From the NCBI GenBank assembly GCA_002324875.1, contig NTJG01000007.1:62001-126000 (forward strand): 64,000 nucleotides of DNA, given 5' to 3'. Under the pieces are notes generated by a model that had not been told where the DNA came from, ran no database searches, and saw only the letters and a program-made list of their open reading frames with translations. A program made the translations under genes and the position numbers. Position 1 is the first letter of the stretch, and each line of letters opens with the position of its first letter. This document shows positions 38,294 through 58,491 of the stretch, piece by piece. This stretch comes from Lysobacteraceae bacterium NML93-0793. Lineage in GTDB: Bacteria > Pseudomonadota > Gammaproteobacteria > Xanthomonadales > Xanthomonadaceae.

Positions 38294-38377
38294 GCCGCCG
38301 CGCCGGCCATCGTGGCCGCGGTGGTCAGGGTGCGTCAATGTCTGCCGGGTTCACCTGCCGCGCGGTAGCATCGATCC

Positions 38378-38884
38378 ATGCAGAACGTAATGACACGCCG
38401 GCCGCGACTTCCCGCCCTGGGACGGTTCGGCTGGCTGATGGCGCTGTATGCGGAAAACCACGGGCGCCTGGTGCGCTTGTTCGATCCCGGGCACCTCGCG
38501 CCGGGGCAGTACCTGTCGCAGGTGGAGGGCGCGCTGTCGGTGCGCCTCGACGTGCTCGCCCAGCATGCCTACACCACCGAACTGCGATTGAGCTACACGA
38601 TGCTCGACCCGGCCACCGGGGAGCCGGATCCGTCCGCCTACCTGCGTTTGTATCGCGACGCCGGTCAGGTGGAAGCCACGCATTGCTATGTGGGACGACG
38701 CTGGCAGGACGTGATCGGCATGTTTCCGCCGCCGTCGGAAGTGGTGGATCACCGCACGCGGATGAACACCTTCCTCGGCAAGTGGCTGCAGTATCTCCAC
38801 GACCAGGGGCATGGGCTTGCAACCTTGCGTCGAAATCCGGATGATGCGCGCCTCGATCGCAACGAGGCCGGCGCCACCGGCTGA
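38378..38884 (+). CDS. DUF1249 family protein
   Basis: This 168-aa cytoplasmic protein shows the DUF1249 pattern: an N-terminal LMALYAENHGRLVRLF, a central ELRLSYTMLDPAT, LRLYRDAGQVEATHC, and a C-terminal NTFLGKWLQYLHDQGH. Its molecular role is unknown. In gammaproteobacteria the family lies near nucleotide-second-messenger genes, but no such partner is seen here. The start is ATG 38378; an internal ATG five codons later is possible. It stands 84 bp after ppsR on the same strand. Confidence 0.88.
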   Translation: MQNVMTRRPRLPALGRFGWLMALYAENHGRLVRLFDPGHLAPGQYLSQVEGALSVRLDVLAQHAYTTELRLSYTMLDPATGEPDPSAYLRLYRDAGQVEATHCYVGRRWQDVIGMFPPPSEVVDHRTRMNTFLGKWLQYLHDQGHGLATLRRNPDDARLDRNEAGATG

Positions 38885-38978
38885 CACGTTCTCCGGAACG
38901 GACGCAGCGGACGAAGGAAGTGCGAAATTCTGTTGACGTTGCCGATACGGAACACTACAATTTCGCGCTCCCAAACGT

Positions 38979-39054
38979 GGGGCCATAGCTCAGCTGGGAG
39001 AGCGCCTGCATGGCATGCAGGAGGTCGGCGGTTCGATCCCGCCTGGCTCCACCA
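38979..39054 (+). tRNA. tRNA-Ala (GGC)
   Basis: This 76-nt cloverleaf has acceptor stem GGGGCCA/TGGCTCC with encoded CCA. The anticodon arm is CCTGC-ATGGCAT-GCAGG with anticodon GGC, reading GCC codons. The T arm contains GGTTCGATCC. Confidence 0.97.
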
Positions 39055-39112
39055 CAATTTGTCCGATGGTCGTAACGGCCTGATCATCGGAATGACGCAA
39101 GACGGTTTCTGC

Positions 39113-39188
39113 GTCCCCATCGTCTAGAGGCCTAGGACACCACCCTTTCACGGTGGACACCGGGGTTCGAATCCCCGTGGGGACGCCA
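39113..39188 (+). tRNA. tRNA-Glu (TTC)
   Basis: This 76-nt cloverleaf has acceptor stem GTCCCCA/TGGGGAC, discriminator G and encoded CCA. The anticodon arm is CCACC-CTTTCAC-GGTGG with anticodon TTC, reading GAA/GAG. It lies 58 bp after tRNA-Ala in the same orientation, probably one transcript ended by the next hairpin. Confidence 0.97.
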
Positions 39189-39201
39189 CTTTTCACGCAA
39201 G

Positions 39202-39229
39202 CGGGCAGCTCGGAAGAGCTGCCCGTTTT
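39202..39229 (+). terminator. Rho-independent terminator of the tRNA operon
   Basis: A perfect 10-bp stem CGGGCAGCTC/GAGCTGCCCG with a GGAA tetraloop is followed by TTTT. It lies 14 bp after tRNA-Glu. Confidence 0.92.
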
Positions 39230-39730
39230 GCGTTGGGCGCGTCTCGGGAACGCGGAGTCCGCAGCGGCGTTGCGGCGTGTTGGACGCCTGGGCGGTACCA
39301 GCGCTGTCGTCGTCGGCCATCGATGGCCGGAGTGTTCGATCCGTTCGCGAGGTACGCACGGTCCCGTGTGCCTTCGAGGCGCCCGGACGTGATATCTGGC
39401 GCTGCGACCGCATTCCTCGCGCGCGAGCGCGTTCGTCCAGAGATGGCGTGATGCGCAGCGCTCGGCACGCATCACGAGATGACGTGTTGCCGAGCACGCA
39501 GCGTTCGATCTGACTCAATGCGCCTGTAGGAATGCGCGCGCGACGACTGCTGCGGCGAAGCCATCGCATATGCCCGATTCGAAGCCCGGCTCTTCTGCAG
39601 GCGCCCGCTCGATCGCGATCCGCCCCGACGCAACCTCGCCCTAGCGCGCACCCGCCGAGAGGGCGGGGCGCCTGGATGAAGCGTTCGCGCGAATCATTGC
39701 TGATCCGTACGTGGCACTACGTACGTCCAA
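39230..39730. other. Intergenic, no gene seen
   Basis: This gap of about 500 bp separates the tRNA terminator from the dcp promoter. Short frames exist but none has family features. A small inverted pair TACGTGGCACTACGTACG lies near 39708-39724. Confidence 0.4.
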
Positions 39731-39739
39731 TGTTATAAA
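39731..39739 (+). promoter_or_regulatory. Extended -10 element of dcp
   Basis: TGTTATAAA (TG-n-TATAAA) lies 74 bp before the dcp start in otherwise GC-rich DNA. The -35 region is weak, as allowed for extended -10 promoters. Confidence 0.45.
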
Positions 39740-39812
39740 TTCACAGGAATAGCCTTCGGTCCGGCGCTGTCGGATCGATGCCACCCGTGACGTCCAGCTT
39801 CGGAGCAACAAC

Positions 39813-41939
39813 ATGGTTCTACGTGCGTGTCTTCTGTCCACCGCGATCGCGGCGACGCTTCTGACCACCAGTCTGCCGAGCGCGGCGCAAAGCGCCGAAA
39901 CCCGCGCAGAGCAGAGCGCCAATCCGCTGACCGCGGCGTGGAACACGCCCGATGGCGTGCCGCCGTACGACCGCATCCGCCCGGAGCATTACGAGCCGGC
40001 ATTCGATCTGGCCATCGCCGAGGCACGCGCGGAGAGCCAGCGCATCGCCAACGACCCGGCGGCGCCGACGTTCGAGAACACGATCGAAGCGATGGAGCGG
40101 GCGGGGCGGCAGTTGTCCCGGGTGTCGAGCACCTTCTTCACCGTGGCCTCGGCCGACGCGACGCCGGCCAACCAGGCGATCCAGAAGAACGTGGCGCCGA
40201 AACTGGCGCGTCTCTCGAACGAGATGATGCTCGACCAGAACCTGTTCCAGCGCGTGGACGCGCTCTACAAGACGCGCGCGGATCTCGGCCTGACGGCCGA
40301 GCAGACGCGCCTGCTCGAGCAGACCCACAAGCGCTTCGTGCGCGCGGGTGCTGCGCTCTCGCCAGATGCCCGCACGCGTGTGGCGGCGATCAACGAGGAA
40401 CTGGCGAATCTGGGCGTGGCCTTCGGCCAGAAGCTGCTGGCCGACCAGAAGGCCAATGACGTCTTCCTGAGCGAGGCCGAGGTGGAGGGCCTGCCGGCCG
40501 ATCAGCGCAGCGCGGCGGCCGCGGCCGCGAGCGCCGCGGGACAGCCGGGTGCCTTCCTGTTTCCGGCGACGCGTTCGTCGGCCGAGCCGTTCCTGACGGC
40601 CGCACCGAACCGCGATGCGCGCGAGAAGATCTGGCGCGCCTTCACCTACCGCGGCGACAACGACAACGCCAACAACACCAGCGAGGAAATCAAGCGCCTG
40701 GTGGAACTGCGGATCGAGCGCGCCGAACTGATGGGCGCGGCGAGCCACGCGGACTTCGTGCTCGAGGATTCGATGGCCAAGACCACCGATGCCGCGATGG
40801 AGCTGCTGATGGCGGTCTACCAGCCGGCGCTGGTGCGTGCGCAGGAAGAGCTGCGCGACATCGAAGCGTTGGCCGCGAAGGACGGCATCACCGATGTCCA
40901 GCCCTGGGACTGGCGTTACTACGCCGAGCAGGTGCGCCGCGAGCGCTTCGCGCTGGACGAGGCCGAGGTCAAGCAGTACATGCCGCTGGACGGCATCGTC
41001 GACGCGATGTTCGAGACCACGCAGAAGCTGTTCGGCCTGACCGCGCACGAGCGCACGGACATTCCGGTGTATGCGGACGGTGTGCGCGTGTTCGAGATCC
41101 GTGAGGCGGACGGCAGCAAGATCGGTCTGTTCTACGCCGACTGGTTCGCACGGCCCACGAAGCGCCCGGGTGCCTGGATGAACAGCATCCGCGTGCCCAA
41201 TGGCTTGCTCGGCGACACGCCGATCGTCGTCAACAACCAGAACATCACGCCGCCTGCGCGCGGTGAGCGGGCACTGATCTCGCTGGACGAGGCGCAGACC
41301 TTGTTCCACGAGTTCGGCCACGGTCTGCACGGCCTGCTGTCGACGGCGCGCTATCCGAGCCTGTCGGGCACGGCGGTTCCGCGTGACTTCGTCGAGTTCC
41401 CGTCCCAGGTGTACGAGCACTGGATCACCGAGCCGACGATTCTGCGCGCGCATGCCCGCAACGCCGCCGGCGAGCAGATGCCCGAGCCGATGCTCGAGGC
41501 GCTGCTCAAGGCGCAGACCTTCAACCAGGGCTTCCTGACCGTGCAGCAGCTGTCGTCGGCGATTCTGGACATGCGCCTGCACCAGATGACCGAGCTGCCG
41601 CAAGACTTCGACGCGCGTACGTGGGAGGCGGCGCAGCTGCGCGAGCTGGGCGTGCCGGAGGAAATCGGCATGCGTCACCGCCTGCCGCATTTCAGCCACA
41701 TCTTCGACGGTGGCTACTCGGCCAGCTATTACGCCTACACCTGGGCCGAGGCGATGGACGCCGACGGCTTCGACGCGTTCAAGGAAGCCGGCAACGTCTT
41801 CGACCCGGAGCTCTCCGCCAAGCTGCGCCGTGAAGTCTACGAAGTCGGCAACACCCGCGACCCGGCTGAAAGCTACCGTGCGTTCCGCGGTCGCATGCCG
41901 ACCGCCGACGCGCTGCTGCGCAACCGCGGCCTGAAGTGA
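39813..41939 (+). CDS. dcp: M3-family peptidyl-dipeptidase Dcp
   Basis: This 708-aa zinc metallopeptidase removes C-terminal dipeptides from oligopeptides. The active site HEFGHGLH has H499, E500 and H503, with a downstream glutamate as third ligand. Unlike cytoplasmic Dcp, this protein has a clear signal peptide (residues 1 to about 26, LLTTSLPSAAQSAE), so it is probably periplasmic. The C-terminal GGYSASYYAYTWAEAMDAD is the family substrate-binding segment. It is monocistronic, with an extended -10 upstream and a strong hairpin after the stop. Confidence 0.93.
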   Translation: MVLRACLLSTAIAATLLTTSLPSAAQSAETRAEQSANPLTAAWNTPDGVPPYDRIRPEHYEPAFDLAIAEARAESQRIANDPAAPTFENTIEAMERAGRQLSRVSSTFFTVASADATPANQAIQKNVAPKLARLSNEMMLDQNLFQRVDALYKTRADLGLTAEQTRLLEQTHKRFVRAGAALSPDARTRVAAINEELANLGVAFGQKLLADQKANDVFLSEAEVEGLPADQRSAAAAAASAAGQPGAFLFPATRSSAEPFLTAAPNRDAREKIWRAFTYRGDNDNANNTSEEIKRLVELRIERAELMGAASHADFVLEDSMAKTTDAAMELLMAVYQPALVRAQEELRDIEALAAKDGITDVQPWDWRYYAEQVRRERFALDEAEVKQYMPLDGIVDAMFETTQKLFGLTAHERTDIPVYADGVRVFEIREADGSKIGLFYADWFARPTKRPGAWMNSIRVPNGLLGDTPIVVNNQNITPPARGERALISLDEAQTLFHEFGHGLHGLLSTARYPSLSGTAVPRDFVEFPSQVYEHWITEPTILRAHARNAAGEQMPEPMLEALLKAQTFNQGFLTVQQLSSAILDMRLHQMTELPQDFDARTWEAAQLRELGVPEEIGMRHRLPHFSHIFDGGYSASYYAYTWAEAMDADGFDAFKEAGNVFDPELSAKLRREVYEVGNTRDPAESYRAFRGRMPTADALLRNRGLK

Positions 41940-41991
41940 TCCGGTTCCTGCCTCGCGGTTCTTGATCGCGATGCAGGGCAGGGTGACCTCG

Positions 41992-42027
41992 CAAGGGCGA
42001 TACGCCAGGCGCGTATCGCCCTTGTTG
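41992..42027 (+). terminator. dcp terminator
   Basis: A perfect 14-bp stem CAAGGGCGATACGC/GCGTATCGCCCTTG with a 5-nt loop lies 52 bp after the dcp stop, followed by TTG. Confidence 0.85.
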
Positions 42028-43202
42028 CGTTCTGCGATGCAGCCGCGATCCGGACGCCCCGATCCCCGTCATCGAGGCGGGTCGGCGCCGGCAGGCGGCG
42101 CGCACAGCGCGATCAATGCACGCGTTCCGGAGTCGGCGCCCGTCTCGGCTGCAGGCGCCGGCCGGAGGGCGGCATGCAAGCGACCCGGTCCATGGGTTGC
42201 TGGTCGTCGATGCCATCCAGAGCGCTGCATTGTGACCGGCATGCAACGGAGTTCTTGGGAGTCGATCGAGCCGATGGCGCCAACTCCGATCAACCGCGCT
42301 GCGATCACCGCGTCGCCTCACTGGCGGCGTCACCGCGCCGGCCGCGACGGCCGACAACAGAAGCAACGCCTCGGCGCGCGCGGCTCCCAGTACGCATTGC
42401 ACAAGCGCGAGAGTTCACCGTCGTTCGTGCTCACGGGCTGGGTGGCGCATCGCACGGGCAAGATTCCAAGTTCGGCGAGGGCCAAGACGCCGATGGTCAC
42501 ACGCTCTGTGTTTTACATAATGTACATTATGCGAAGTTATGGCCGCTTCCGAGGCGTGGTTATCGCGGCCGCGAGCAGCTGGCTGTCAGCACCAATCCTC
42601 CGCAGCAGGACCTCTCATCGCGTGTCACCCCATCTCGTCGATCAGACCGGTCAGCTTGAGCGTGGAACTGGTTTCAGCCGTCTCCCGAGAGTGTTCGAAG
42701 ATTGCCGGGCACCTGGCACAGTCACCAATCCGTAAGTCTGCAAGACTTCTACGGACGATTGGCGTCCGACCACAACCGAAACTCCGAGACGTCTCGCCCC
42801 GATGGGCACCGCACTCTTAAGTGCCCTGCGCACGCACTAATCGTGTACATCTCACGCACCCAGGCGTGTACCCCAAAGTCTCCAACGCACAAACGTGTGT
42901 ACACATTTGCGACTTCCGCAGTTTTGGGTGTCCACTAATCCCGGAGTCGTGATCCGGACGGTTTGCTGACGCCGGATGTTTGCCGCGCTAATGAGTGCTG
43001 CGAGTCAGATTTCGAGCTGGTAGAAGCTCCTTCGGCCTCCGACTCGGCTACGACGAGATCCATCTCGCGCGAGGCCAAGCGTCAGATCTTGATCAAGCCG
43101 ATCCTATTGGTCCCACAGGTTCTTGTCCCCCCGGATCAGACCGGCAACGCAGTCCAAGGCAGAATGTGGGGGGCTGCGCGTCTTGGCGCGACGAGCCGAG
43201 CT
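42028..43202. other. 1.2-kb region without a convincing gene
   Basis: Frames here lack family features and composition varies. It becomes AT-richer around 42500-42540 and 42840-42930. It contains the dif-like palindrome at 42510-42537 and an imperfect hairpin at about 42726-42766 (CCAATCCGTAAGTCT.../...CGATTGG). The remains of a mobile element begin at its right edge. Confidence 0.5.
42510..42537 (-). other. dif-like / XerCD-type recombination site
   Basis: On the minus strand the 28-mer consists of ACTTCGCATAA, central TGTACA and TTATGTAAAAC. It contains the 16-bp perfect palindrome CATAATGTACATTATG. From memory it agrees with the E. coli dif 28-mer at 22 positions, with the inner parts of both arms conserved. 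It could be the chromosomal dif, a site used by an Xer-exploiting element, or a recombinase site related to the AT-rich palindromes at 32254 and 44226. Confidence 0.45.
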
Positions 43203-44133
43203 TTAGGGCTGGGCCGACTCCTTCTCCTTCTTCTTCGCAGGTTTGCGCGCCTTCGCGGTGGGAGATCGTTGTCGCCACGCCGCTTCCAGCGCTGCTGGCA
43301 GATCATTGAGCTTCGCGAGTTGCTGCTCTAGAGCGTCGGCACGTGCCCGCTGGACACCCGCTTCCCGACGCGCCTCAACGGCCTCCGCTCTTGCCCGCTC
43401 GGCGCTCTGAGACGATGATCTTTCAGCAGATGCGTGTGCACGATTGGTGGCTGCTATCTGGCTTCTCAATTCTTTGGCCTCTTGGCGAGCGAGATCGACT
43501 TCGCGGTGAGCACGATCCTCGACTGCACGAACGTGCTGCGCCAAGCCTTCGCGCTCCGCCCGAGCCTCTTCAGCCACGGCTTGTAAGCGATTCTCAGCTG
43601 TTTGGCGGGCGACTTCAGCGTCTGACGCTCTTTTGAGCGCGGCATTCCGCTGACACTCCTGTTCTTTGATCTTTCCTTCAAGCTGGCTGACCAAGCGCTG
43701 CATTTCGATCGTTCGGGCAGTCGCCAGACGTTCGGATTGGGAAGCCTGTGCTGCCGCGCTGCGCAAGGACACCGCTTCGGCGGCAAATCCTTCGCGCTCT
43801 TGACTCAACGCCTGTTGAGCGTTCTGCAGGTCGGCCTGTTGGAGGGCAAAGCCGTTCTCGGCTTCAGACCGGGCATGCTTGAGAGCCAGCCCCCACCACT
43901 CCCCCGCCAGCTTGGCAAACAGCCTCAGGTGCCTCGGGCGCCGAGAGGCTGCGCTGATGAGTGTCCAGCCGTGCACCAAGCCCACGCCACCAAGTCTCCA
44001 GCCATCGCGTGACAGTGTTCGGGGACCCGGTGCCCAGGTGCGAGCGAATGCGCTCGACGGTAGGTCGCTCTCCGGTGCCGACGATCTCGTCAGCAGCCAT
44101 GTGAACGTCGGATTCGGTGATGCCTCGAGCCAT
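43203..44133 (-). pseudogene. KfrA/TnpT-like gene with a single-base frameshift
   Basis: The N-terminal part (from ATG 44133) has the KfrA DNA-binding domain (MARGITESDVHMAADEIV, then GSPNTVTRWLETWWRGLG). The C-terminal part, in another frame, has a long coiled coil and a lysine-rich tail (AKKKEKESAQP). Translation switches frame at the T-run (A-run 43917-43919 on the plus strand). Removing one base joins ...SAPEAPEAV to AKLAGEWWGLALKHAR, the expected family continuation. The total length of 931 nt fits one extra base. It is divergent from the recombinase at 44238, the tnpT/tnpS arrangement of Tn4651-like elements. A sequencing error is the alternative. Confidence 0.75.
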
Positions 44134-44214
44134 GGAAGTGCCTCCTACGCGGCCGCCCTACTCTGTTGATTGTGTACTCGCGATAAGTGATGATTATCGC
44201 TAGTAGACGCTCTA

Positions 44215-44243
44215 TTTCATAGCATATATTACATAATATGAAA
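44215..44243. promoter_or_regulatory. Divergent AT-rich palindromic site, possible res core
   Basis: TTTCATA (44215-44221) and TATGAAA (44237-44243) form outer arms. ATATTA-CA-TAATAT (44226-44239) is a nested perfect palindrome. It sits between the divergent kfrA/tnpT-like gene and the recombinase, where Tn4651-type elements place their res site and promoters. The recombinase ATG lies inside the right arm. Confidence 0.55.
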
Positions 44244-45317
44244 CGAAATAACACATTGCCGGCCAACACAGCGACGGTCACCAGCCTTGTGCTGCCAGAA
44301 CAACTGGCCCACCATGCCGCCGATGCGGTTCGCGAATTGCTCGCCGAAGCGGCCGCTGCCAACACGACGCGCAGCTATGCGACCGCCCTACGCTACTGGG
44401 CTGGCTGGCACCAAGGTCGTTACGGCATCGAATTGGCGCTGCCTGTCAGCGAGGCTGTGGTGATCCAGTTCCTGGTCGATCACATCCAGCGCAAAAACAA
44501 GGCCGGTCTGGTCAGCGAACTGCCTTCCGCGCTAGATCAGGCACTGGTGGCCGCTGGCCTCAAGGCCAAGGTCGGGCCGCTCAAGCTCTCGACCGTGGTC
44601 CAACGCGTGGCCGTCCTGTCCACAGCACACAAGCTCAAGCGCCTGGCCAACCCCTGTGAGCTGCCCAGTGTCAGGACGCTTCTAAGCCGAGCCCGACGTG
44701 CTGCGGTCAAACGTGGCGAGCGACCCACCAAGAAGACCGCCATCACGCGTGCAGAGCTCGAGGCCATGCTGGCCACCTGTGACGATAGCCTTGAAGGCCT
44801 GCGTGACCGCGCCCTGCTCTGCTTTGGGTTCGCCAGCGGTGGGCGCCGGCGTAGCGAGATCGCAGCGGCCGACATGCGTGACCTGCGCAAGGTTGGAGAT
44901 GACGGCTATATCTATCGGCTGGAGTACTCGAAGACCCAGCAGGCTGGGGCGAAAGCGGATTCGACGCCGGACAAGCCGATCCTGGGGCGCAGCGCTGAGG
45001 CGCTCTCGACTTGGCTTGAAGCGGCAGAGATTCGTGAGGGAGCGATCTTCCGGCGGATCTGGAAGGATCGAGTTGGCCCTGCCCTGCTCCCTGGCTCGGT
45101 GGCGTCGATCGTGAAGCGCCGTGCCCGTCTGGCCGGGTTGGAAGGCGACTTCGGGGCGCACAGCCTACGATCGGGGTTTGTGACCGAGGCCGGCAAGCAA
45201 GGCGTCCCACTCCCCGCCGTGATGGCGATGACCGAGCATCGTTCCGTGGCGAGCGTGATTGGGTATTTTCAAGCAGGTGCAGCAGAGGACAATCCGGCAG
45301 GCCGTCTTCTCAAATAG
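44238..45317 (+). CDS. Tyrosine recombinase, TnpS-like
   Basis: This 359-aa site-specific recombinase has a core-binding domain (residues about 30-130) and a catalytic domain. The latter has Arg in GGRRRSEIA (about 202), H-x-x-R in GAHSLRSGF (about 306-309), His in MTEHRSV and nucleophile Tyr in VIGYFQAG (about 341). It appears intact. Its divergence from a KfrA/TnpT-like gene across a palindrome matches the cointegrate-resolution module of Tn4651-like transposons. No transposase or matching inverted repeat is seen nearby, so the module is a remnant or has been recruited by the defence-like genes that follow. Confidence 0.85.
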   Translation: MKRNNTLPANTATVTSLVLPEQLAHHAADAVRELLAEAAAANTTRSYATALRYWAGWHQGRYGIELALPVSEAVVIQFLVDHIQRKNKAGLVSELPSALDQALVAAGLKAKVGPLKLSTVVQRVAVLSTAHKLKRLANPCELPSVRTLLSRARRAAVKRGERPTKKTAITRAELEAMLATCDDSLEGLRDRALLCFGFASGGRRRSEIAAADMRDLRKVGDDGYIYRLEYSKTQQAGAKADSTPDKPILGRSAEALSTWLEAAEIREGAIFRRIWKDRVGPALLPGSVASIVKRRARLAGLEGDFGAHSLRSGFVTEAGKQGVPLPAVMAMTEHRSVASVIGYFQAGAAEDNPAGRLLK

Positions 45318-45401
45318 GGCCATCGCGCCCCAATGGCTGCCGACTCGGAATCGTGGCCTTCCGGCGTGCACCATTATCTGACTAAGTTCTGAGCTGATCC
45401 A

Positions 45402-48400
45402 ATGATGCCGATCTCCACACCTCCTGCCGACCGCACCTTCTTCGACCTGCCAACGGATGAGAAGTCCAACATCGAGACCGCCGAGTTCCTGGCCAACTTT
45501 CGCTACGGGTCCAGAACAGGCTGGTCCGCGCTGTTGGAGTCCGAGCGCGTGCTCATCGTCTCCGAAGCCGGCATGGGCAAGACGTACGAATGCCAACGCC
45601 AGCAGAAGAGGCTGTGGGACGACGGCCGACCGTCGTTCTTCCTGGAGCTGGCCGTACTGGCGACGGATCCGTTGGAACGACAGTTTTCCGTGGAGGAACA
45701 ATCCCGTTTCGATGCCTGGAAGGCGGCCCAGACCGAGCGCGCGTTCTTCTTCCTGGACTCCGTCGACGAACTCAGGCTCACCCAGCGTTCGTTCGACGCG
45801 ACGCTCAAGCGATTCGCATCAGCTTTGGGCGCCGCCCTCGACCGCGCATGCATCGTGTTGACATCGCGGCCCACCGTGCTCGATCTGGAGATCGTCCGCA
45901 GTCGGCTCCCGGTGACGCGGCCGGAGGAAATGTTCGTGCCGGAGGAATACTTCGCCAACGTGGCGATGAGCGTTGAGAAAACGCCGGTCGCGCAAGTGAT
46001 CCCGGAATGGCGCTTTGTCGCCCTGTCCGGGCTGGACGAACAGCAGATGCGCGCGCTCGCCGCCGCCGAGGGGGTGGACGATCCTGAGGCCTTACTCGCT
46101 GCCATCAACGCGCATCACGCGCACGATTTCGCGAAGCGGCCGCTGGATTTCCTGGAGCTGTGCGGGGACTGGAAGATCCACGGGCGCATCCGCAGCCACC
46201 GCGACCAAGTGGACAACAGCATCGGCATCAAGCTACGCCCCCGTGGCGACCGGCAGGAGCGAACACAGTTGTCGCCGCAGCGGGCACGCGAGGGTGCAGC
46301 ACGTCTCGCGCTGGCCGCCCTGCTCTCGAGGAAGTTGACGCTGTGGCACAGCAGCGACAACGATCGCGGACGCGGTGACGCGACCTTGGAGCCGGCCAAG
46401 GTTCTCATCGACTGGGCCAACGACGAGGTGCAAACGCTGCTCGAGCGACCACTATTCGGATTCGCGACCTACGGGCGGGTGCGGTTCCACAATCGTTCCA
46501 TCATCGAGTTCCTTGCCGCGGAAAGATTGCAGCAGCTGATGGAACGCGGCCTGCCGATACGAGCATTGATGCGCCTGCTGTTTGCGACGACGCCTGAGGG
46601 GCAACGTATCGTCAAGCCGTCGCTGCAGCCGGTTTCCGCCTGGCTTGCGCTACAGGTTTCGATCGTGTTCTCCGAAGTCCTCGCGCGCGACCCCAGCCTG
46701 CCGCTGCGATACGGTGACCCCGGTTCGCTGAGCCCGGCGCAGCGCACGCAGGCGCTGGAACGATACGTCGAGACGTACGGCGCCGATGGCTGGCGCGGCC
46801 AGCGCATCCCAAGCCTGCAGCTGCAGCGGCTCGCGACGACGGACCTTGACGCGGCCGTGGAACGGCTTTGGAAGCGCGGCATCACCAATCCCGAAGTCCG
46901 CGAGACGTTGCTCGAGCTGATGGCCGCCGGACGGATGGTCCGCTGCTCGGACATCGCCCACGGCGTGGTGACCGATCCCGTCAACGACGTGCGTGATCGC
47001 CTGCATGGGTTGCTGGTCCTTGCGGAGCTGGACGATCCGCGGTTGCCTGCGCTGCTGGATGCCGTTGTATCACCGGCGCCCGAATGGCCCGAGCAACTCG
47101 CACGACTGGTCATCCAATACCTGCTCCCGCAGCATCTTTCGGTCCCCCAACTCGTCCAGGCGCTCGCGCGCCTGACCACGAAGTCCCGCGACATCGGTGG
47201 TGTTTCGACGATGCTGCCGCTGGTGATCGCCAAGATGGACCTCGACCCGACTGGCTGGTTGGAATTGCAGCAAGGCCTTGCCGCGCTCGTGTCGGGAGCA
47301 AGCCATTGGGACGAACGGCATTTCCGGGTTAGCTCCGATCGCCAGGACCTGGTGCCCGCACTGCTGGTTGCGTGCCGTCGCCGTCTGGAGATGGGACGAG
47401 CCGCCGCCGATCTGTTCGATGCCATCGCCCTAGCTGGGCTGCTGGCAAGGCACGATCACGATGCGGGCGGAGACAGCAAAACTCTGAAGGCGGCGCTCGG
47501 CGAGGCGTCGAGCGACGTGCGTGCCGGCGTGTTCTGGGCGACCGACCACCTGGTTCGGACGCACCACCCAAAGGGCGAACGTGAGCCGTTCTTCCGGCTG
47601 TTCCAGTTCGGGTCGCACGGCGCGTACCAACTCGATTTGAAGCGGGATGCGGACTGGGTGCTGCGGGCCCTGTCGGATCCCGCCCGGTCGTCGCTCGATC
47701 GCGAAGTGGCCTTGGAGATCGCCCTCCAGTACTCGGGCAGTCAGCCCGACCGCACGGACTGGGCGAGGCAACTCATCGAGTTATCTAGCAGCAGCTCCGT
47801 GCTCCACGATCGCGCGAAGGCCTTCCTGGACTCGATCGAGAATCCGCCGCCCCCACCTGCGTGGCAGCGCGAAGACCAGAGGCGCAGCGAGAAGGCGCGT
47901 CGCAAGCAGGCAAGCAACCTGGCCAGTTGGCGGCTGTTCTGGCGCGAGCTGGACAACGATCCGGAGACCGCATTCTCGGTCGACAAGATCGACAACACCA
48001 CTTGGCACCTATGGCACGCGATGGCGAAGGATTCGTCCGACCAGTCGTTCGCCGGATGGAATCGCGGATTCATCGAGCGCGTGTTCGACAAGGCCATGGC
48101 CGATCGCTTCCGGACGGCGCTCGCGGCAGCGTGGCGCAAGGACCGACCCACCCTGAAATCGGAACGACCGCCCGAAGAGCGCAACAGCTACCTGATGCGA
48201 TGGCGTATGGGCCTCGCCGGCCTGTACGCCGAGGCCGAGGATGCGTCATGGGCCGTCAGACTTACTGCCGAGGAAGCCGATCTCGCGTGTCGCTACGCAC
48301 TGATTGACTTGAGCCGGCTCCCGCCGTGGCTTGATGCCGTCATCCAGGTTCATCCGACCGTCGTCGATGCCGCCATCGGCAATGAGCTCTCGGCCGAACT

Positions 48401-49694
48401 CGAGGACACGGACGAGAAGCACGCCTCGCTGCTGCAGGAAATCTCCAACACGTCCACACCGATCGTCTCATTCTTCCTGCCACGGATCCGGACGTGGCTC
48501 AAAGCGGTGCTCGCCGACCAGGACACCGCCGTCGCGGGGATGGACAAGGTGGGACGCGCCATCACCCTGCTGCTGGAACATGGTCTCGCCGAAGACGCAG
48601 CCGATGTCCTCGACGTCGGGAGAATGCGGTTGCAAGGAACGCCCGACCCCTCGGAGACCAAGTTCTGGTTGCCGATCCTGGCGCGACTGGATCCAGCGGA
48701 ATGCGTCGACACCATGGAACGACTGGCCGGGGCGATTCCGCCCGCAAAGCACTCCGTGGTCGTCGACTGGATCGCAGCCCTGTTCGGCAACAACGGATCC
48801 GAGGCGGACCTGTCGCGCTTCGAAACCCAGCCGGACCTGCTGCTGCGACTCGCCAGGATGGCCAATCGGCACGTCAGATTCGTCGACGATCTGAACCACG
48901 AAGGCGTCCACTCCATGGGTACCCGCGACTATGCTGAGCGCGGCAGGAGCGTGCTTGGCAATCGACTGCTAGGCGCCAAGGGTGCAGGCGCGTGGGAAAT
49001 GAAGATGCAGTTCGCCAACGATCCGGACGTCGTGCACTTTCAGGACCGGATCCGGGCGGTCGCACTGGAGCAACTGGCCGAGGACTGGGACACCGTCATC
49101 CTGGATGAAACGGACGTCGTGCGGCTGGAAGCCGAACATGACTTCTCGCCCACCAGTCGCGTCGAGATGGCCGCACTGCTCAACGCGCGGCTGTGCGACC
49201 TCGACGATCTTCTCGTGGGCGACACGTCCCCGCGCGAACTCTGGGCGATCATTACCCAGGAACGGGTGCTGCGGAAATCACTTGCCGGAGAGCTTAAGAA
49301 TCTGGCCCGCGGGGCGTATCTCGTCAATCAGGAGGCCGTCACCGGCGACGAGAAGGAAACTGACATTCGCCTCGCATCCACCAAGGAGCCGCTCGAGGCG
49401 GTCATCGAACTCAAGATCGGCGAGAACGGCTATTCGTTCACTGATCTGCAGCAGGCGCTCCACACGCAGCTAGCAGGCAAGTACATGGCACCAGAACACC
49501 GGCGGGTCGGATGCCTGCTAATCTCGATCTCCGGCGATCGGCATTGGCTGGATCCCGTAACCAAGACGCGCATGGAGTTCGAGGAGGTCGTTTCCCGGCT
49601 CGACATTGAAGCGAAGGAACTGGCGGCCAACCTCGGCTACGGGGCCCACCTCGTGGCGAAGGGACTGGATCTGCGCCCCAGGAAAGCAACATAG
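45402..49694 (+). CDS. STAND/NACHT-like NTPase with helical repeats and C-terminal PD-(D/E)xK nuclease motif
   Basis: This is a 1430-aa soluble protein. The N-terminal NTPase has Walker A SEAGMGKT (54-61) and Walker B FFFLDSVDEL (D119, D122). An FHNRSIIEFLAAERLQ segment near 362 resembles the end of NACHT modules. Residues about 400-1200 are helical and rich in leucine and acidic residues, like HEAT/ARM-type sensor repeats. Near the C-terminus D1321-x14-E1336-L-K1338 (TDIRL...VIELK) fits a PD-(D/E)xK nuclease. The build suggests a sensor that triggers nucleic-acid cleavage, as in antiphage STAND proteins, but with the effector at the C-terminus. That role is inferred. It starts 84 bp after the recombinase, with a DUF4238 gene following. 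Confidence 0.75.
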   Translation: MMPISTPPADRTFFDLPTDEKSNIETAEFLANFRYGSRTGWSALLESERVLIVSEAGMGKTYECQRQQKRLWDDGRPSFFLELAVLATDPLERQFSVEEQSRFDAWKAAQTERAFFFLDSVDELRLTQRSFDATLKRFASALGAALDRACIVLTSRPTVLDLEIVRSRLPVTRPEEMFVPEEYFANVAMSVEKTPVAQVIPEWRFVALSGLDEQQMRALAAAEGVDDPEALLAAINAHHAHDFAKRPLDFLELCGDWKIHGRIRSHRDQVDNSIGIKLRPRGDRQERTQLSPQRAREGAARLALAALLSRKLTLWHSSDNDRGRGDATLEPAKVLIDWANDEVQTLLERPLFGFATYGRVRFHNRSIIEFLAAERLQQLMERGLPIRALMRLLFATTPEGQRIVKPSLQPVSAWLALQVSIVFSEVLARDPSLPLRYGDPGSLSPAQRTQALERYVETYGADGWRGQRIPSLQLQRLATTDLDAAVERLWKRGITNPEVRETLLELMAAGRMVRCSDIAHGVVTDPVNDVRDRLHGLLVLAELDDPRLPALLDAVVSPAPEWPEQLARLVIQYLLPQHLSVPQLVQALARLTTKSRDIGGVSTMLPLVIAKMDLDPTGWLELQQGLAALVSGASHWDERHFRVSSDRQDLVPALLVACRRRLEMGRAAADLFDAIALAGLLARHDHDAGGDSKTLKAALGEASSDVRAGVFWATDHLVRTHHPKGEREPFFRLFQFGSHGAYQLDLKRDADWVLRALSDPARSSLDREVALEIALQYSGSQPDRTDWARQLIELSSSSSVLHDRAKAFLDSIENPPPPPAWQREDQRRSEKARRKQASNLASWRLFWRELDNDPETAFSVDKIDNTTWHLWHAMAKDSSDQSFAGWNRGFIERVFDKAMADRFRTALAAAWRKDRPTLKSERPPEERNSYLMRWRMGLAGLYAEAEDASWAVRLTAEEADLACRYALIDLSRLPPWLDAVIQVHPTVVDAAIGNELSAELEDTDEKHASLLQEISNTSTPIVSFFLPRIRTWLKAVLADQDTAVAGMDKVGRAITLLLEHGLAEDAADVLDVGRMRLQGTPDPSETKFWLPILARLDPAECVDTMERLAGAIPPAKHSVVVDWIAALFGNNGSEADLSRFETQPDLLLRLARMANRHVRFVDDLNHEGVHSMGTRDYAERGRSVLGNRLLGAKGAGAWEMKMQFANDPDVVHFQDRIRAVALEQLAEDWDTVILDETDVVRLEAEHDFSPTSRVEMAALLNARLCDLDDLLVGDTSPRELWAIITQERVLRKSLAGELKNLARGAYLVNQEAVTGDEKETDIRLASTKEPLEAVIELKIGENGYSFTDLQQALHTQLAGKYMAPEHRRVGCLLISISGDRHWLDPVTKTRMEFEEVVSRLDIEAKELAANLGYGAHLVAKGLDLRPRKAT

Positions 49695-49763
49695 CGCCGC
49701 CCGCGCTCGGCTCAAGACGCGTGCACCGCATGAGCCCGGCGCATCACCATCCCGCGAACGGAT

Positions 49764-50617
49764 ATGGCCACCAACAAGAACCAGCATTTCGTGCCTCCTG
49801 CTACCTGAGGGCATTCACCGCCGGCGGCGACAACAAGATCATCAACATCTTCAATATCGATCGCGATGGCTACATCGCAGACGCCCCGGTGCGGAGCCAG
49901 TGCTCCGGCGATTACTTCTATGGCCAGGACCAGCGTCTGGACGATGCTATCCGCCATGTCGAGGAAACCTATGGCGCGGAAGCGCGGTCGCTCATCGCCG
50001 GATGCAGCACACTGAGCAGGAAGTCGGCGTTCGTGCTGCGGTCCTTCTGGGTACTCCAACACCTGCGCACCGAGGCGGCGTCTGTGCGTTTCGCGCAGAT
50101 GACGCGCCAACTTGCCGATGCCATCGGCGAAGGCGAGGGTTTCGCAATGTCGATCAAGGAGGCCGTGTTGCTGGCGATGAGCTTCTATGTCGACCAGCTT
50201 CAATGCACCGACGACCTCGACATCTGTGTCGTTCGCAATATTTCCGGCGTTCCGTTCATCACGTCCGATGATCCGGCCGTGCTCACCAACCGCTGGCACT
50301 TCCACCGGCAATGGCACCTGACCAGGTCGTTCGGTCTCGGCTCGACCGGCATGATCGGCTTGCTTCCGCTGAGCGAAGACCTGCTGTGCGTCCTGTATGA
50401 CCCGGAGCTCTACGAGCTTGCGTCCGTCAATGGCTTCCTGGAGACGGCGTCGAGCGACGACGTCGCGATGTTGAACGAACATCAGATCCTCAACTACCAT
50501 GCGAACCTGTATGCACGCGATGCCAACGAGCATCCTCGACCGCGATGTTCGCGGCCAGCCTCGGCGCGCCATCCTCCTGCACGACCCAGGTGCGCTGCTC
50601 TATGCGGCGGCCGTTGA
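49764..50617 (+). pseudogene. DUF4238 protein gene with a frameshift near its start
   Basis: From ATG 49764 the frame reads MATNKNQHFVP, the standard DUF4238 beginning, but stops at 49806-49808. One base shift at about 49794-49800 joins it to the frame CYLRAFTAGGDNKIINIF, which continues to 50617. The body includes VPFITSDDPAVLTN, another family hallmark. The 854-nt span fits loss of one base. DUF4238 proteins occur in defence islands and with toxins; their activity is not known to me. The last ~40 residues (RPRCSRPASARHPP) do not look like the family and may be foreign. A sequencing error at the start is possible. Confidence 0.65.
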
Positions 50618-50786
50618 GGATCATCACCGGGATCACGAGGCCACTGTCCTCCGCGCGCCGCCAACGCGTGGCCCGGTCCGAATCGCGCAGATCTTCGAAC
50701 GCACCGGAGGTCGCGGAATGCCGGCGGTGCCCGCAGGGTTCAAAGGCAGATCTTGTCCAGGATGATCAGGATCGACACGAGGCCAG
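50618..50786. other. Debris region, no gene seen
   Basis: This lies between the DUF4238 frame and the TetR remnant. Frames open on the minus strand across 50520-50800 but match nothing I recognise. Confidence 0.35.
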
Positions 50787-50980
50787 CCAGCAGGACAAGA
50801 AGTACGCTCCCAGCAGATCCTCGACGCCGCCTTGGCAGAGTTCGGCCAGCACGGGGTTGCCGCCACCCGGATAGAAGATATCGCTCACGCGGTCGGCTTG
50901 TCCAAAGGCGGCATCTGACTACCTCACAGACCCGTGAGGTGCACAAGCGGTTGCTGATGGACATACTGCGCCCCGCATGA
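50787..50980 (+). pseudogene. Remnant of a TetR-family regulator
   Basis: The frame from 50787 reads QQILDAALAEFGQHG, then ATRIEDIAHAVGLSKGGI. This is a clear TetR N-terminal helix-turn-helix, which stops at 50916-50918 where YxHFxxK is expected. A shifted frame then gives REVHKRLLMDILRP, resembling the following helix, so indels have broken the gene. No ligand domain remains. A 27-codon frame at 50977-51060 with a signal-like sequence (HLMLLAAALGLTV) may be the start of a once-adjacent exporter gene. Confidence 0.65.
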
Positions 50981-51180
50981 ACCGTACGGCTCTGGCGCTG
51001 TGCCGCTGCGCGCACCTGATGCTGCTCGCCGCCGCACTCGGCCTGACCGTCCGGGGATAGCGCAGGCCACGCTGCCGACACGGGACGAGATGGCCTTGCG
51101 TCATGGGCGCGACCGGCCAGGTGACCCGGACCGGCGCGCATATCGCGGGCATGACCCGCTCCTGCGGAACGCGGGCCGGA
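50981..51180. other. Debris after the TetR remnant
   Basis: This holds a short truncated signal-like frame ending at 51060 and otherwise no recognisable gene. It separates the decayed region from the convergent efflux operon. Confidence 0.35.
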
Positions 51181-52224
51181 TCAACCAGGCCGGGCTTGCG
51201 CGGCAGCGGTACGCGAACGTCCAGCCCCGGGAATCAGCAGCTTTTCCAGCAGTGCGGTCAGCAGCGCCGCCGCCACCGCGCCGCCCAGGGTCAGCACCAC
51301 CCGGGTCAGCACGGCGTAGCCCGGCTCGCTGGTGGTCAGCGAACTGCTCACCAGCACCACCGCGGCCGAGAACGCGAACTGGTACACCATCGGCGGCTGG
51401 CGGCCGTGCATCATCCGGCTGCCGAAATACAGGCCCGCGAGCATGACCAGCAGCAGCACGATCGGCAGGTGGGCGATGAAGGTCAGGCAGAACAGCAGCA
51501 GCAGGGCCACCAGCGCCCCGAGGATGGTCGCGACCACGCGCTGGCGCGCCTCCTCGAAGTAGGCCTGGCGGGTGGGAAACACGAGCACGAACGTGGCCAC
51601 GACCGCCAGGATCATGTTGCTGGCGTCGATGACCGAGTACAGCCAGAAGCACAGCAGCAGTTGCACGCCGGCGCGGATCGCCGCCGCCCGCACGTGGTGG
51701 CCGGGCGCGGGCACGTACGCCTCGATCATCCGCTCCCGGGTGCGCGGCGGAAACACCAGATACAGCGCGGGAATGATCAGCAGGGTGGCCAGGGCGGCCT
51801 CGGTCATGCTGTCGCGCATCGCCTCCATGCCCGCGATCGAACTCATGCCCATGACCGACATCAGCACGGTCATCAGGATCACCAGCATGCCGATCGGATT
51901 GCCGGTGCGCTGGATCAGGTAGAACCCGGCGAAGAACAGCAGCGCCATCAGCATGATCAGCACCATCGGCATGGGTTTGGCCAGCGAGACCAGCGCCGCC
52001 ACCAGCCAGACCATCACGATCAGCGCGATCGGACCGCCGAACGCCTTCTTCGGGTCGAACGCCTTGCGCATGCCGGCCATCAGGCCGACCGGGAGCGCCG
52101 CCAGCAGCGCCGGAATGGCGGTCTGCAGCACCGGCGCCAGTGCGAAGCCCACGACCGCCGCCGACGCCAGCCGGATCGCGAACAAGGGGTCGTCAGCTGC
52201 TTCCGGGCGCGGGGCGACGTACAC
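51181..52224 (-). CDS. DUF2955/FUSC-like inner-membrane transporter
   Basis: This 347-aa protein has about ten hydrophobic segments in two blocks (residues about 15-160 and 190-330) around a short soluble loop. This is like DUF2955 proteins related to the fusaric-acid/aromatic-acid exporter family. It lies 9 bp after the HlyD-family gene and is certainly cotranscribed with it; such pairs export aromatic acids, dyes or antibiotics. The GTG start at 52224 has AAGG upstream. The substrate is not predictable. Confidence 0.8.
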   Translation of the reverse strand: MYVAPRPEAADDPLFAIRLASAAVVGFALAPVLQTAIPALLAALPVGLMAGMRKAFDPKKAFGGPIALIVMVWLVAALVSLAKPMPMVLIMLMALLFFAGFYLIQRTGNPIGMLVILMTVLMSVMGMSSIAGMEAMRDSMTEAALATLLIIPALYLVFPPRTRERMIEAYVPAPGHHVRAAAIRAGVQLLLCFWLYSVIDASNMILAVVATFVLVFPTRQAYFEEARQRVVATILGALVALLLLFCLTFIAHLPIVLLLVMLAGLYFGSRMMHGRQPPMVYQFAFSAAVVLVSSSLTTSEPGYAVLTRVVLTLGGAVAAALLTALLEKLLIPGAGRSRTAAAQARPG

Positions 52225-52233
52225 CTTGGCGGC

Positions 52234-53448
52234 TCAGTAGAGGTAGCTGGCGATCGACTGGGCGCGATGCAGGCCCCTAGCGATCCATGCGACCGGGTTG
52301 TCGGTGCCGCTGGTGTAGACCACCACGCTGACCTTCGCGCCGGCATGCACCTGCGACGGCCATTCCTGTTCCGGATCGAGTTCAACCCGCACCGGGAAGC
52401 GCCGGGCCGGCTCGAACCAGCGCGTTTCCGGCGCGTTCTGGAGCAACCCGCCGGCGCTGGCGCGGCCCGGGTCGATCGCCCCGGCGATGCTGTGCACCTG
52501 CCCCTGGAAGATCGTGCCGGGCACCGCGTCGAACAGGATGCCGACCCGGTCGCCGGGCGCGATGTTGCCGAGCTGGTTCTCGCGCAGGTCCGCGGTCACC
52601 CAGGCGCCGCCGGTGTCGACGAAGGTCAGGGCCGGCGAGCCGGGGGCGGCGTACTGGCCCACCGCCAGCTGCAGGTTGGTGACCCTGCCGTCGCGCGGCG
52701 CTTCGACGGTGGCGTACAGCAGGTTCAGCTGCGCCTGCTCCAGTTGCAACCGGGCGGAGCGGATTTGCGGATTGTCGATGCCGCCGCTGCCCAGCTGCAG
52801 TTCGGCGCTGCGCAGTCCGGCCTGGGCCGCCTCCAGCTGCGCCTGCGCGGTGCGCAGCGAAGCCCGCGCGTTGTCGGCATCCGCGCGCGAGACCAGTTGC
52901 TGCCCGGCCAGGGCCAAGGTGCGGGCGGTCGCGGTGCGGGTGTTGTCCAGGTGCGCGCGTGTGCGAACCACCTCCGCTTGCGAGGCGGCAAGGCCGGCGG
53001 AGGAGGCGTCGATGCCCTGGGTTGCCTGCGCCAGCGCCGCCTCGGCCTGGTGCACCGCCAACTCGAACGGGCGCGGGTCTAGCGCGAACAGCGGCGTCCC
53101 CCGGGCCACGGCCTGGTTGTCGTGCACGAACACCTGCTCGACCTGGCCACCGACACGCGGCGTGATCTGGGTGACGTAGGTGGAGACGGTGCCACGGGAG
53201 GTGTACGGAGCGTGGCGGTCGGTCAGCACGTACCAGCCCGTCAGCACCACCAGCAGCACCAGCACCAGCAAGGCGACCTTCTTCGCCGGATTGCGCGGCG
53301 CGGGGGCGGAACCCGGGGCGGGTGCCGTTTCCGCGGCCGGCGGCGTCGGCTCCGTGGCCGCCGCGGCGCCTCCGGCATGCGCTGGCGGCGGGGCCGGTGG
53401 TTGCGCGCCCCCGCGTCCGCCGGACGGGGGGGCAGGTGTCTGGCTCAT
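52234..53448 (-). CDS. HlyD/EmrA-family membrane fusion protein
   Basis: This is a 404-aa periplasmic adaptor. A long proline/alanine-rich cytoplasmic tail (residues 1 to about 50) is followed by one membrane anchor (VALLVLVLLVVLTGWYVL), then lipoyl and alpha-hairpin domains (RVGGQVEQVFV, then GTPLFALDPRPF) and a C-terminal barrel. It connects the DUF2955 transporter to an outer-membrane channel, which is not encoded next to it. It is divergent from a TetR-family gene across a 121-bp gap with a palindromic operator, so TetR repression is likely. Confidence 0.88.
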   Translation of the reverse strand: MSQTPAPPSGGRGGAQPPAPPPAHAGGAAAATEPTPPAAETAPAPGSAPAPRNPAKKVALLVLVLLVVLTGWYVLTDRHAPYTSRGTVSTYVTQITPRVGGQVEQVFVHDNQAVARGTPLFALDPRPFELAVHQAEAALAQATQGIDASSAGLAASQAEVVRTRAHLDNTRTATARTLALAGQQLVSRADADNARASLRTAQAQLEAAQAGLRSAELQLGSGGIDNPQIRSARLQLEQAQLNLLYATVEAPRDGRVTNLQLAVGQYAAPGSPALTFVDTGGAWVTADLRENQLGNIAPGDRVGILFDAVPGTIFQGQVHSIAGAIDPGRASAGGLLQNAPETRWFEPARRFPVRVELDPEQEWPSQVHAGAKVSVVVYTSGTDNPVAWIARGLHRAQSIASYLY

Positions 53449-53532
53449 CGTGAATCCTCCCTATCCACGCCTGGTCCGCGCGTGGTCGATCGTACATGGG
53501 ACGTCGCTGCTTGGCAGCCGCCGGCAATTATA

Positions 53533-53546
53533 GTACGATACCGTAC
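53533..53546. promoter_or_regulatory. TetR-type operator between divergent efflux and regulator genes
   Basis: A perfect inverted repeat GTACG-ATAC-CGTAC lies in the 121-bp gap. It abuts TATAAT on the minus strand (53527-53532), the likely -10 of the HlyD gene. Its position suits repression of both directions by the TetR protein at 53570. Confidence 0.7.
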
Positions 53547-53569
53547 CGTTTTACACCAACCGGCCCTGA

Positions 53570-54289
53570 ATGCCTCCCGACAGATCCGCCCCCCGCGCCG
53601 GGGACCGTCCGCCTTCGCCGCGCACGCCGCCGTCCGCGCGCGGCAGGCTTGCGGCATCGGGCGGCCGCCCCCCGCGGGCGGTCTCCGAACAGACCGCCGG
53701 GCGCATCATCGACGCGGCGAAGACGCTGTTCCTGCGCGAGGGCTACGAAAAGACCAGCATGGACGCACTGGCGGCGGCACTGGGGATGTCGAAGCGGACC
53801 CTGTACGCGCGCTTTCCCGGCAAGGCCGAGCTGTTCCGTGCGGTAGTGCATTCGGTCGCCAAAAGCCACCTCCTCGCCACCGAATCCATCGACGTGGCGA
53901 GGCGCAGCCTGCGCAGCCAACTGCTGGCAGTGGGCGGGCGCCTGATCGAGGCCGTGCTCGACCCGGACATGGTCGCCATCGAGCGGGTGATCGCCGGCGA
54001 GGCGCACCAGTTCCCGGAACTGGCCACCCTGCTGAGCGACCTGCGCAGCGAACGCGTGATCGGACTGGTCGCCGGCCTGCTGCGGCATTCGGGCGTGCGC
54101 GGCCGCATGGGCAACGCCGAGGCCCGGCGCGACGCCGAGATCTTCGTGGCCCTGGTCGCGCTGCCGCCGCTGCGCCGGGCCGTGCTCCGCGCCGGTGACC
54201 ACGACGATCCGGAACAGGCCGCGCGCATGCTGCGGCGCCGCGTCGACATCTTCCTGCACGGCATTGCCGGCGCCGGCCGGCAACAATAG
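53570..54289 (+). CDS. TetR-family repressor of the efflux operon
   Basis: This 239-aa protein has a basic, disordered N-terminal extension of about 40 residues. The TetR HTH follows (RIIDAAKTLFLREGYEKTSM, then LAAALGMSKRTLYARFPGK), then a helical ligand-binding domain of the AefR/TetR_C type. The start at 53570 lies just after the operator; a later start would trim the extension. It is divergent from the HlyD/DUF2955 pair, which it probably represses until an inducer binds. The next gene follows after 7 bp. Confidence 0.88.
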   Translation: MPPDRSAPRAGDRPPSPRTPPSARGRLAASGGRPPRAVSEQTAGRIIDAAKTLFLREGYEKTSMDALAAALGMSKRTLYARFPGKAELFRAVVHSVAKSHLLATESIDVARRSLRSQLLAVGGRLIEAVLDPDMVAIERVIAGEAHQFPELATLLSDLRSERVIGLVAGLLRHSGVRGRMGNAEARRDAEIFVALVALPPLRRAVLRAGDHDDPEQAARMLRRRVDIFLHGIAGAGRQQ

Positions 54290-54296
54290 TCGCGAC

Positions 54297-55370
54297 ATGC
54301 CGGATACCACCGCCACACCGGGGCACCCGAAGCGCAGGGCCATCGCGCGCGCGGCCGTCGGCGCGTTGCTGGCGCTGGCCATCTCGCTGGCCGGGCTGTG
54401 GGGCGCCTTCGCGCTGTGGTTCCAGCTGCCGGCATCCGCGCCGGTCCGCATCGCCGCGATCACCGCATGGTGCCTGCTGGGCATGGCGGCGCTGTCCACG
54501 CTCCCTGGCAGCCGGCGCTGGCGCCGCCGGGTGCTGCCGCTGTTCGGACTGGCCCTGCTCGGCCTGCTGGCCTGGTGGAGTACGCTGGCGCCCTCGCACG
54601 AACGCGACTGGGCGGACGACGTGGCGCGGCTGCTGGAAACCGACGTGGAAGGCAGCCGGGTGACGCTGCACAACGTGCGCAACTTCGACTGGCGCAGCGA
54701 GGCGGATTACACCCCGCGCTGGGAAACCCGCGCGTACGACCTCGACGACCTGGTCTCGGCGGACCTGGTCCTGTCCTACTGGATGGGCCCGGCGATCGCG
54801 CACACGCTGGTCTCGTTCGGGTTCGGCGACGGCGAACGGGTGGTGTTCTCGCTGGAGATCCGCAAGGAGCGCCACGAGCGCTTTTCCGCCATCGGCGGCT
54901 TCTTCCGCCGCTTCGAGCAGGTGCTGGTGGCTGCGGACGAACGCGACATCGTGCGCGTGCGCAGCAACGCGCGCGGCGAGGACGTCTACCTGTACCGGCT
55001 GGCGGTTGCGCCCGACGCGCTGCGCGAACTGTTCCTGGGCTACACGGCGGAGGCCAACCGGCTGCGGCACGAACCGCGCTTCTACAACACCCTGACCAGC
55101 AACTGCACCACCATCGTGTTCGATCTGGCGCGGAAGATATCGCCTGGCCTGCCGCTGGACTACCGGCTGCTGCTGTCGGGGTATTTCGCCGAGTACGTCC
55201 ACGATCTCGGCGGCCTGGCGCCGGGCCACGGATTCGCCGAACTGCAGGCGCGCGGCCGGATCGTCGCGCGGGCGCGGGCCGCGGACGCCAGCGGCGAGGA
55301 CTTCCCGCAGGCGATCCGGCGCGGCGTGCCCGGCATCCCCGCGCGCTCGCCGCACCGGGAGGCGCGATGA
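54297..55370 (+). CDS. DUF4105 (Lnb-like) membrane protein
   Basis: This 357-aa protein has three N-terminal membrane segments within the first ~100 residues. A periplasmic DUF4105 domain follows, with RAYDLDDLVSADLVLSYW, then IAHTLVSFGF and the conserved YNTLTSNCTTIVFDLAR containing a likely catalytic cysteine. The family is cysteine-protease-like and related to the lipoprotein N-acyltransferase Lnb. It overlaps the next gene, a lipoprotein hydrolase, by ATGA, so the two probably act together at the cell envelope. Start ATG 54297 is 8 bp after the TetR stop. Confidence 0.8.
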   Translation: MPDTTATPGHPKRRAIARAAVGALLALAISLAGLWGAFALWFQLPASAPVRIAAITAWCLLGMAALSTLPGSRRWRRRVLPLFGLALLGLLAWWSTLAPSHERDWADDVARLLETDVEGSRVTLHNVRNFDWRSEADYTPRWETRAYDLDDLVSADLVLSYWMGPAIAHTLVSFGFGDGERVVFSLEIRKERHERFSAIGGFFRRFEQVLVAADERDIVRVRSNARGEDVYLYRLAVAPDALRELFLGYTAEANRLRHEPRFYNTLTSNCTTIVFDLARKISPGLPLDYRLLLSGYFAEYVHDLGGLAPGHGFAELQARGRIVARARAADASGEDFPQAIRRGVPGIPARSPHREAR

Positions 55371-57457: not shown

Positions 57458-57566
57458 ACCCGGAAAATTCCGAGTATGAGAACCACCGCTCTTGGCAGGA
57501 AGCTGTTCTTCGATACTACCGATAACGCTCCCTAGTCCACTAACCTGCTCCATCCCGTCTTGTTCC

Positions 57567-57596
57567 AACGTCCGCTTCCGGCCAGAAGCGGACGTT
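57567..57596. terminator. Strong hairpin in the 316-bp gap after the hydrolase gene
   Basis: A perfect 12-bp stem AACGTCCGCTTC/GAAGCGGACGTT has a 6-nt loop. It lies about 110 bp after the hydrolase stop, in a 57458-57773 gap that holds no gene. There is no clear T-tract, so it may be an interspersed hairpin rather than a terminator. Confidence 0.45.
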
Positions 57597-57773
57597 CTGG
57601 CTGACCCGAACTGCCGCTTCGAATCCACTCTTTCAGAGGGTCGGCAGGGATTCGTGTAAAAAACGGCCAAAGGTGAGCTAACTGCCTGTCATAGCTGACT
57701 TTCTTGGCCGCTCCAGCCACGCGTCAGAACGGAGCATTTCTTCTTCGAGGACCGGACAACGGGCCGTAACTCG

Positions 57774-58397: not shown

Positions 58398-58456
58398 GAT
58401 CATGTCTCCGAGTCGAGCGGGCGTCCGAGGATTTGCGGCCCGCTTCCAGGTCGGCG

Positions 58457-58487: not shown

Positions 58488-58491
58488 GCCC

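Follow-up and report, generated by a model that had tools for sequence, protein, structure and literature searches.

A HyoA-family protein with an N-terminal NACHT NTPase and a predicted C-terminal nuclease in a Lysobacteraceae bacterium

Does the open reading frame (ORF) at positions 45402–49694 (+) of a 64,000-nucleotide stretch of Lysobacteraceae bacterium NML93-0793 (contig NTJG01000007.1, positions 62,001 to 126,000; hereafter the window) encode a new kind of defence protein, and how might such a protein act? The gene, here called hyoA, comprises 1430 codons, starts with ATG and has no internal stop. A reading made earlier from the sequence alone, the original prediction, described a single 1430-amino-acid protein with an N-terminal nucleoside triphosphatase (NTPase), helical repeats and a C-terminal D-x14-ExK motif, and all of these motifs lie where it placed them. 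The Walker A sequence SEAGMGKT occupies residues 54–61 and includes K60, FFFLDSVDEL spans residues 115–124, and D1321-x14-E1336-x-K1338 was confirmed near the C-terminus. As a prediction, this nuclease-last architecture is well supported.

Profile matching places the protein in the HyoA family, a kind of system that already has a name. The NCBIfam equivalog model NF058534, 'NACHT domain-containing antiphage protein HyoA', scored 1451.9 bits against a cut-off of 1200, with residues 10–1427 aligned to model positions 2–1430 of 1430. Because this model runs over the whole protein, including the nuclease, the suggestion of a candidate new protein fails, and new-family status was rejected. The protein can look new because Pfam registers only sub-threshold NACHT (13.2 bits; cut-off 26.7) and nSTAND3 matches, and PADLOC 2.0 (2023), whose library we take to contain AVAST models, had no family matching it at E 1. 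Within alignment A4, 11 of 21 members, our protein included, matched Pfam NACHT at E up to 1 (best E 8e-7), and HEAT_2 matched the solenoid part of two of 21 aligned members at the same threshold. The HyoA model was matched at E 0.01 by 21 of 21 aligned members, our protein again included. Thirteen of these also matched EruA (NF058535; best E 4.4e-43), a second NACHT antiphage family, whereas our protein had no EruA match at E 0.01. Higher-scoring HyoA members share the domain order and nuclease residues described here, but the subgroup of our protein is about 22% identical to several of them (L016–L018). Among the literature matches listed, none treated HyoA as an antiphage protein; none was found for EruA either, and the one bacterial 'EruA' paper concerns, in its available excerpt, an E. 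coli regulator.

Residues K60, D119, D122, E123, E1311, D1321, E1336, K1338, Q1356 and Y1361 are invariant in all 35 aligned sequences, namely our protein and 34 homologues selected among the 120 that were listed out of a total of 1187. Because of this invariance the motifs are, at the level of sequence, more than chance. The result was repeated in two 61-row alignments, one for the nuclease residues and one for the NTPase residues, and again in each of 13 additional usable members (22–46% identity). These came from 15 loci, two of which were left out: L005, where the homologue is split over two frames and its longest piece is too short, and L004, where the wrong ORF had been picked. The NTPase part contains the elements of a STAND (signal transduction ATPases with numerous domains)/NACHT protein, that is, Walker A, Walker B with an acidic pair, a TSRP-type sensor and a winged-helix segment. 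T154, R156 and P157 and a YGRVRF..RS.. segment are conserved there.

Structure prediction and fold search of both ends, which the original prediction had proposed as a check, gave matches to Avs4 and to NLR (nucleotide-binding leucine-rich repeat) receptors at the front and to restriction-type nucleases at the back. The model of residues 1–1193 has a mean predicted local distance difference test (pLDDT) score of 84.0 and is helical from about residue 406, save for a short hairpin at 634–645. The predicted fold of this front part matches NLRC4, NOD2 and Avs4, and its best Foldseek match is Avs4 bound to a phage portal. The solenoid also matched importin/karyopherin-type folds, as is common for helical repeats. 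No domain is predicted ahead of residue about 40. The model of residues 1130–1430 (mean pLDDT 90.8) runs helix, three strands, helix, strand, helix, strand; within it the nuclease, at 1287–1430, is predicted to have the mixed alpha/beta core of PD-(D/E)XK enzymes with the D...(D/E)xK residues on central strands.

The nuclease part gave no match at E 0.001 with Foldseek alone. A sequence search of solved structures returned nothing convincing (best E 0.21), and a profile search returned a single weak match, to mS109 (E 0.011). With the nuclease fold predicted and little Foldseek support for it, the protein might be a STAND regulator whose degenerate nuclease-like domain binds nucleic acid and does not cut it. 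We consider this very unlikely, since E1311, D1321, E1336, K1338, Q1356 and Y1361 stay invariant down to 22% overall identity, which is unexpected for a dead nuclease domain.

The order of the domains separates this protein from related receptors. Avs STAND proteins usually carry their effector at the N-terminus. The HyoA-type protein lacks this arrangement of an effector N-terminal to the STAND NTPase; unlike Avs (AVAST) proteins such as Avs4 (8dgf), it has its effector at the C-terminus. In the excerpts available of two papers (PMC12169576, PMC13092281), bacterial NACHT proteins also have an N-terminal effector, one of the two placing the sensor C-terminally, and the second describes the effector of NACHT-bearing systems as N-terminal (PMC13092281). 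It was therefore fair to call the reversed order notable. The bacterial NLR-related proteins bNACHT25 and bNACHT32 (clade 6) fuse a NACHT module to a PD-(D/E)XK DNase, as predicted for our protein, and in their case DNA is degraded on infection; their DNase is N-terminal, however, and their C-terminus is an NCH1 domain, so that the order is reversed in the HyoA-type protein (PMC12169576, in excerpt).

The analysis shows the order of the domains, their predicted folds, the conservation of the catalytic residues, membership of the family and recent horizontal spread (see below). As to function, we believe with some confidence that the protein is a HyoA-family immune receptor directed at phages, probably acting alone, whose nuclease would cut DNA after a phage trigger. 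At rest, the NACHT NTPase would keep the protein closed. The trigger would be a phage-made molecule bound by the central HEAT-like solenoid, the presumed sensor. Driven by ATP, the protein would open and oligomerize, so that its C-terminal PD-(D/E)XK nucleases meet and cut DNA, their putative substrate; the phage would be stopped and the infected cell would probably die, an abortive outcome. The earlier description of a defence NTPase with a C-terminal nuclease is, at the level of prediction, upheld by the NCBIfam HyoA assignment, the fold comparisons and the spread of the gene on plasmids and between species. The defence function is well supported as a prediction.

The hyoA gene has recently moved horizontally. 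The copy in a second genome, G032, is identical base for base (4293 of 4293), while the left chromosomal flank is 84.7–84.9% identical, and we conclude from this difference that the gene moves. A HyoA match was found in four of 52 genomes of the genus, our own included; three pass the cut-off and the fourth is split over two contigs. Across the class, matches were found in 20 of 369 genomes, six of which, our own among them, pass. A housekeeping regulator was rejected on the grounds of patchy distribution, mobility and the invariant nuclease residues. Relatives also occur on 66 of 72,556 plasmid records. Of these records, 33 are typed as conjugative, and in 22 of the 66 a single place accounts for 80% or more of the protein. 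The viral collection held two contigs, putatively viral, with a relative at 37% identity. Two relatives in the phage collection, both in Acinetobacter records, were not counted as phage, the one inspected being full of bacterial-type genes. A Tn3-type inverted repeat with 4 mismatches (L015:4418–4443) lies upstream of a partial hyoA copy in G041, and because of it hyoA may travel inside a Tn3-family transposon in that genome.

The recombinase gene listed in Table 1 ends 84 bp upstream of hyoA, and its product is 89% identical to the site-specific integrase of a conjugative Xanthomonas plasmid. The divergent ORF beyond it, which had no Pfam match at E 0.01, is also represented on such a plasmid, where the pair lies side by side. 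To us, the pair brings to mind TnpS/TnpT of Tn4651-type transposons, a likeness that we assume. The plasmid records, this recombinase common to Xanthomonas plasmids and the near-identical hyoA copies in different genomes would also suit a guard against plasmids or transposons, or a role in upkeep of the gene's own mobile element, with the same switch and nuclease answering to another trigger. We regard this as unlikely: the NCBIfam name calls the family antiphage, Avs4 in complex with a phage portal ranks first among the Foldseek matches to the front part, and defence genes are commonly carried on such mobile elements.

Table 1. Positions in the window of hyoA, its parts and the adjoining genes
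Feature	Position	Strand	Basis or remark
hyoA-family gene, NACHT NTPase and C-terminal PD-(D/E)XK nuclease, 1430 amino acids	45402–49694	+	NF058534 match
NACHT NTPase core, residues 43–160	45528–45881	+	Walker A at 45561–45584
Helical solenoid, about residues 420–1190, presumed sensor	46659–48971	+	Predicted secondary structure
PD-(D/E)XK nuclease domain, residues 1287–1430	49260–49691	+	Conservation and predicted fold
Nuclease residue D1321	49362–49364
Nuclease residues E1336-x-K1338	49407–49415		Q1356 and Y1361 further on
Tyrosine recombinase, 359 amino acids	44238–45317	+	Phage_integrase 50.9 bits; Cre E 4e-5
Divergent ORF, likely recombinase accessory protein	43203–43985	−	47% identity, 217 amino acids, to plasmid 'DNA-binding protein'
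DUF4238 ORF, probably inactive	49721–50617	+	Pfam 88.6 bits; GTG start 49721

Downstream, hyoA is followed on the same strand by a DUF4238 ORF, and the original prediction had singled out the pair 45402 and 49764 for a neighbourhood survey. The frame beginning at the ATG at 49764 runs for 14 codons before a stop, with a product that, we presume, begins like the start of a DUF4238 protein; the Pfam match lies in another frame, read from the GTG. The DNA around this start is identical in G032, and G041 reads the same product. In G032 a Tn3-family transposon sits inside the ORF (L012, about 5476–10938) and hyoA is unchanged. The DUF4238 gene is probably dead. The G032 transposon carries a resolvase gene and two aminoglycoside phosphotransferase-type genes, has an apparent 5-bp target duplication, and presumably resembles Tn5393.

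If hyoA and DUF4238 formed a two-gene system, this would fit their adjacency, the retention of the pair in G032 and G041, whose copies are near-identical, and a report, seen in excerpt, that a DUF4238 protein alone confers strong T7 resistance (PMC9122126). Whole genomes were surveyed with PF14022, and hyoA neighbourhoods by tblastn, the simple ORF caller having missed the G032 ORF. Among the ten other hyoA-bearing genomes, DUF4238 adjoins hyoA in those two near-identical copies only, is absent from seven and lies on another contig in one (G269). No DUF4238 match was obtained by tblastn in the other sampled hyoA neighbourhoods, and the DUF4238 region had no match by DNA in phage records. Together with the lack of a usual in-frame start and the transposon interruption beside an intact hyoA, this distribution makes a partnership extremely improbable, and DUF4238 was rejected as partner. 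Because a DUF4238 protein is known to act in T7 defence, the island may once have carried two defence genes.

No other partner emerged for the receptor that we propose to act alone. When 176 neighbour ORFs from 16 neighbourhoods, two near-identical viral contigs being counted once, were compared together with four window ORFs, six matches at E 1e-3 joined ORFs of different loci. Two of these pairs were between those viral contigs, and no match extended to a third locus. On this crude ORF calling, no partner gene of hyoA is seen.

The claim of a defence-island setting held in part. In Lysobacter concretionis (L004), the genes after a 70% identical hyoA comprise one with an Mrr domain and those for HamA (381.5 bits) and HamB (1866.5 bits), and by these matches the locus is a clear defence island with Hachiman HamA/HamB and an Mrr-like gene. 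On a Rhizobium plasmid, the second gene past hyoA is of the HEC-05 type. The count of PADLOC families, in contrast, did not separate hyoA neighbours (104 in 121 proteins) from controls (86 in 118 proteins), and because the counts are close the total is no evidence. The 121 proteins, of about 130 amino acids or more, came from the 176 ORFs, with L011 and L012, both stretches of G032, and L047, a duplicate, left out; a family missing from the alignment-derived match list was not taken as excluded. Among the matches listed, those of the controls look like generic helicases and RtcR, and those of the neighbours include ThsB, RT_UG29 and RmrA. An MzaA match at L039 covers 375–629 of a 629-amino-acid protein and is probably housekeeping RpoD, which was matched in the same set.

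On the left, the hyoA island borders a rearrangement breakpoint, since the segment at about 38115–42032 (tRNA-Ala, tRNA-Glu and peptidase genes) lies in the nearest relative, G044, in the opposite orientation relative to the 17636–33385 block and directly adjoins it. The same tRNA and peptidase genes run, in G044, into DNA located at 17636–33385 in the window, where the two genomes are 98% identical. The tRNA loci of four of four relatives (G044, G045, G014 and G012; about 20 kb each) had no match to 43118–57800 at the filter used (>150 bases, E 1e-15), and G014 carries a hyoA homologue elsewhere in its genome. No word of at least 16 bases recurs between the island's right edge and its tRNA side, and a tRNA attachment site is thus not demonstrated.

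Further features lie around the island. A Tn3-family transposon at 16071–33385 has inverted repeats at 16071–16096 and 33360–33385 (26 bases compared); it is flanked by a 5-bp duplication and contains an open frame of 1031 codons with a Tn3 transposase domain (about 17542–18705, −). A block at 50437–57935, up to 72% GC and with an Lnb_N-domain gene, is 99.97% identical in G032 and ends sharply at 57935. A cation efflux gene and an AcrB-family pump gene, perhaps for metal resistance, occupy 57774–62700 (−).

With this locus, an antiphage family for which no paper was found among those listed gains a member that is well conserved and was recently transferred, and whose NTPase, solenoid and nuclease residues can be tested singly. 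We suggest tentatively, as a minority possibility, that HyoA-type receptors are STAND switches built back to front, with the sensor solenoid between the NTPase and the C-terminal nuclease and activation reaching the effector via the sensor rather than by way of the N-terminal effector ring of Avs proteins and animal NLRs. If true, NLR-like immunity would have a second activation geometry. How a signal passes from a STAND receptor to its effector could be tested directly on the nuclease-last order, and the interest of the family now lies in how a receptor with its effector behind its sensor switches on.
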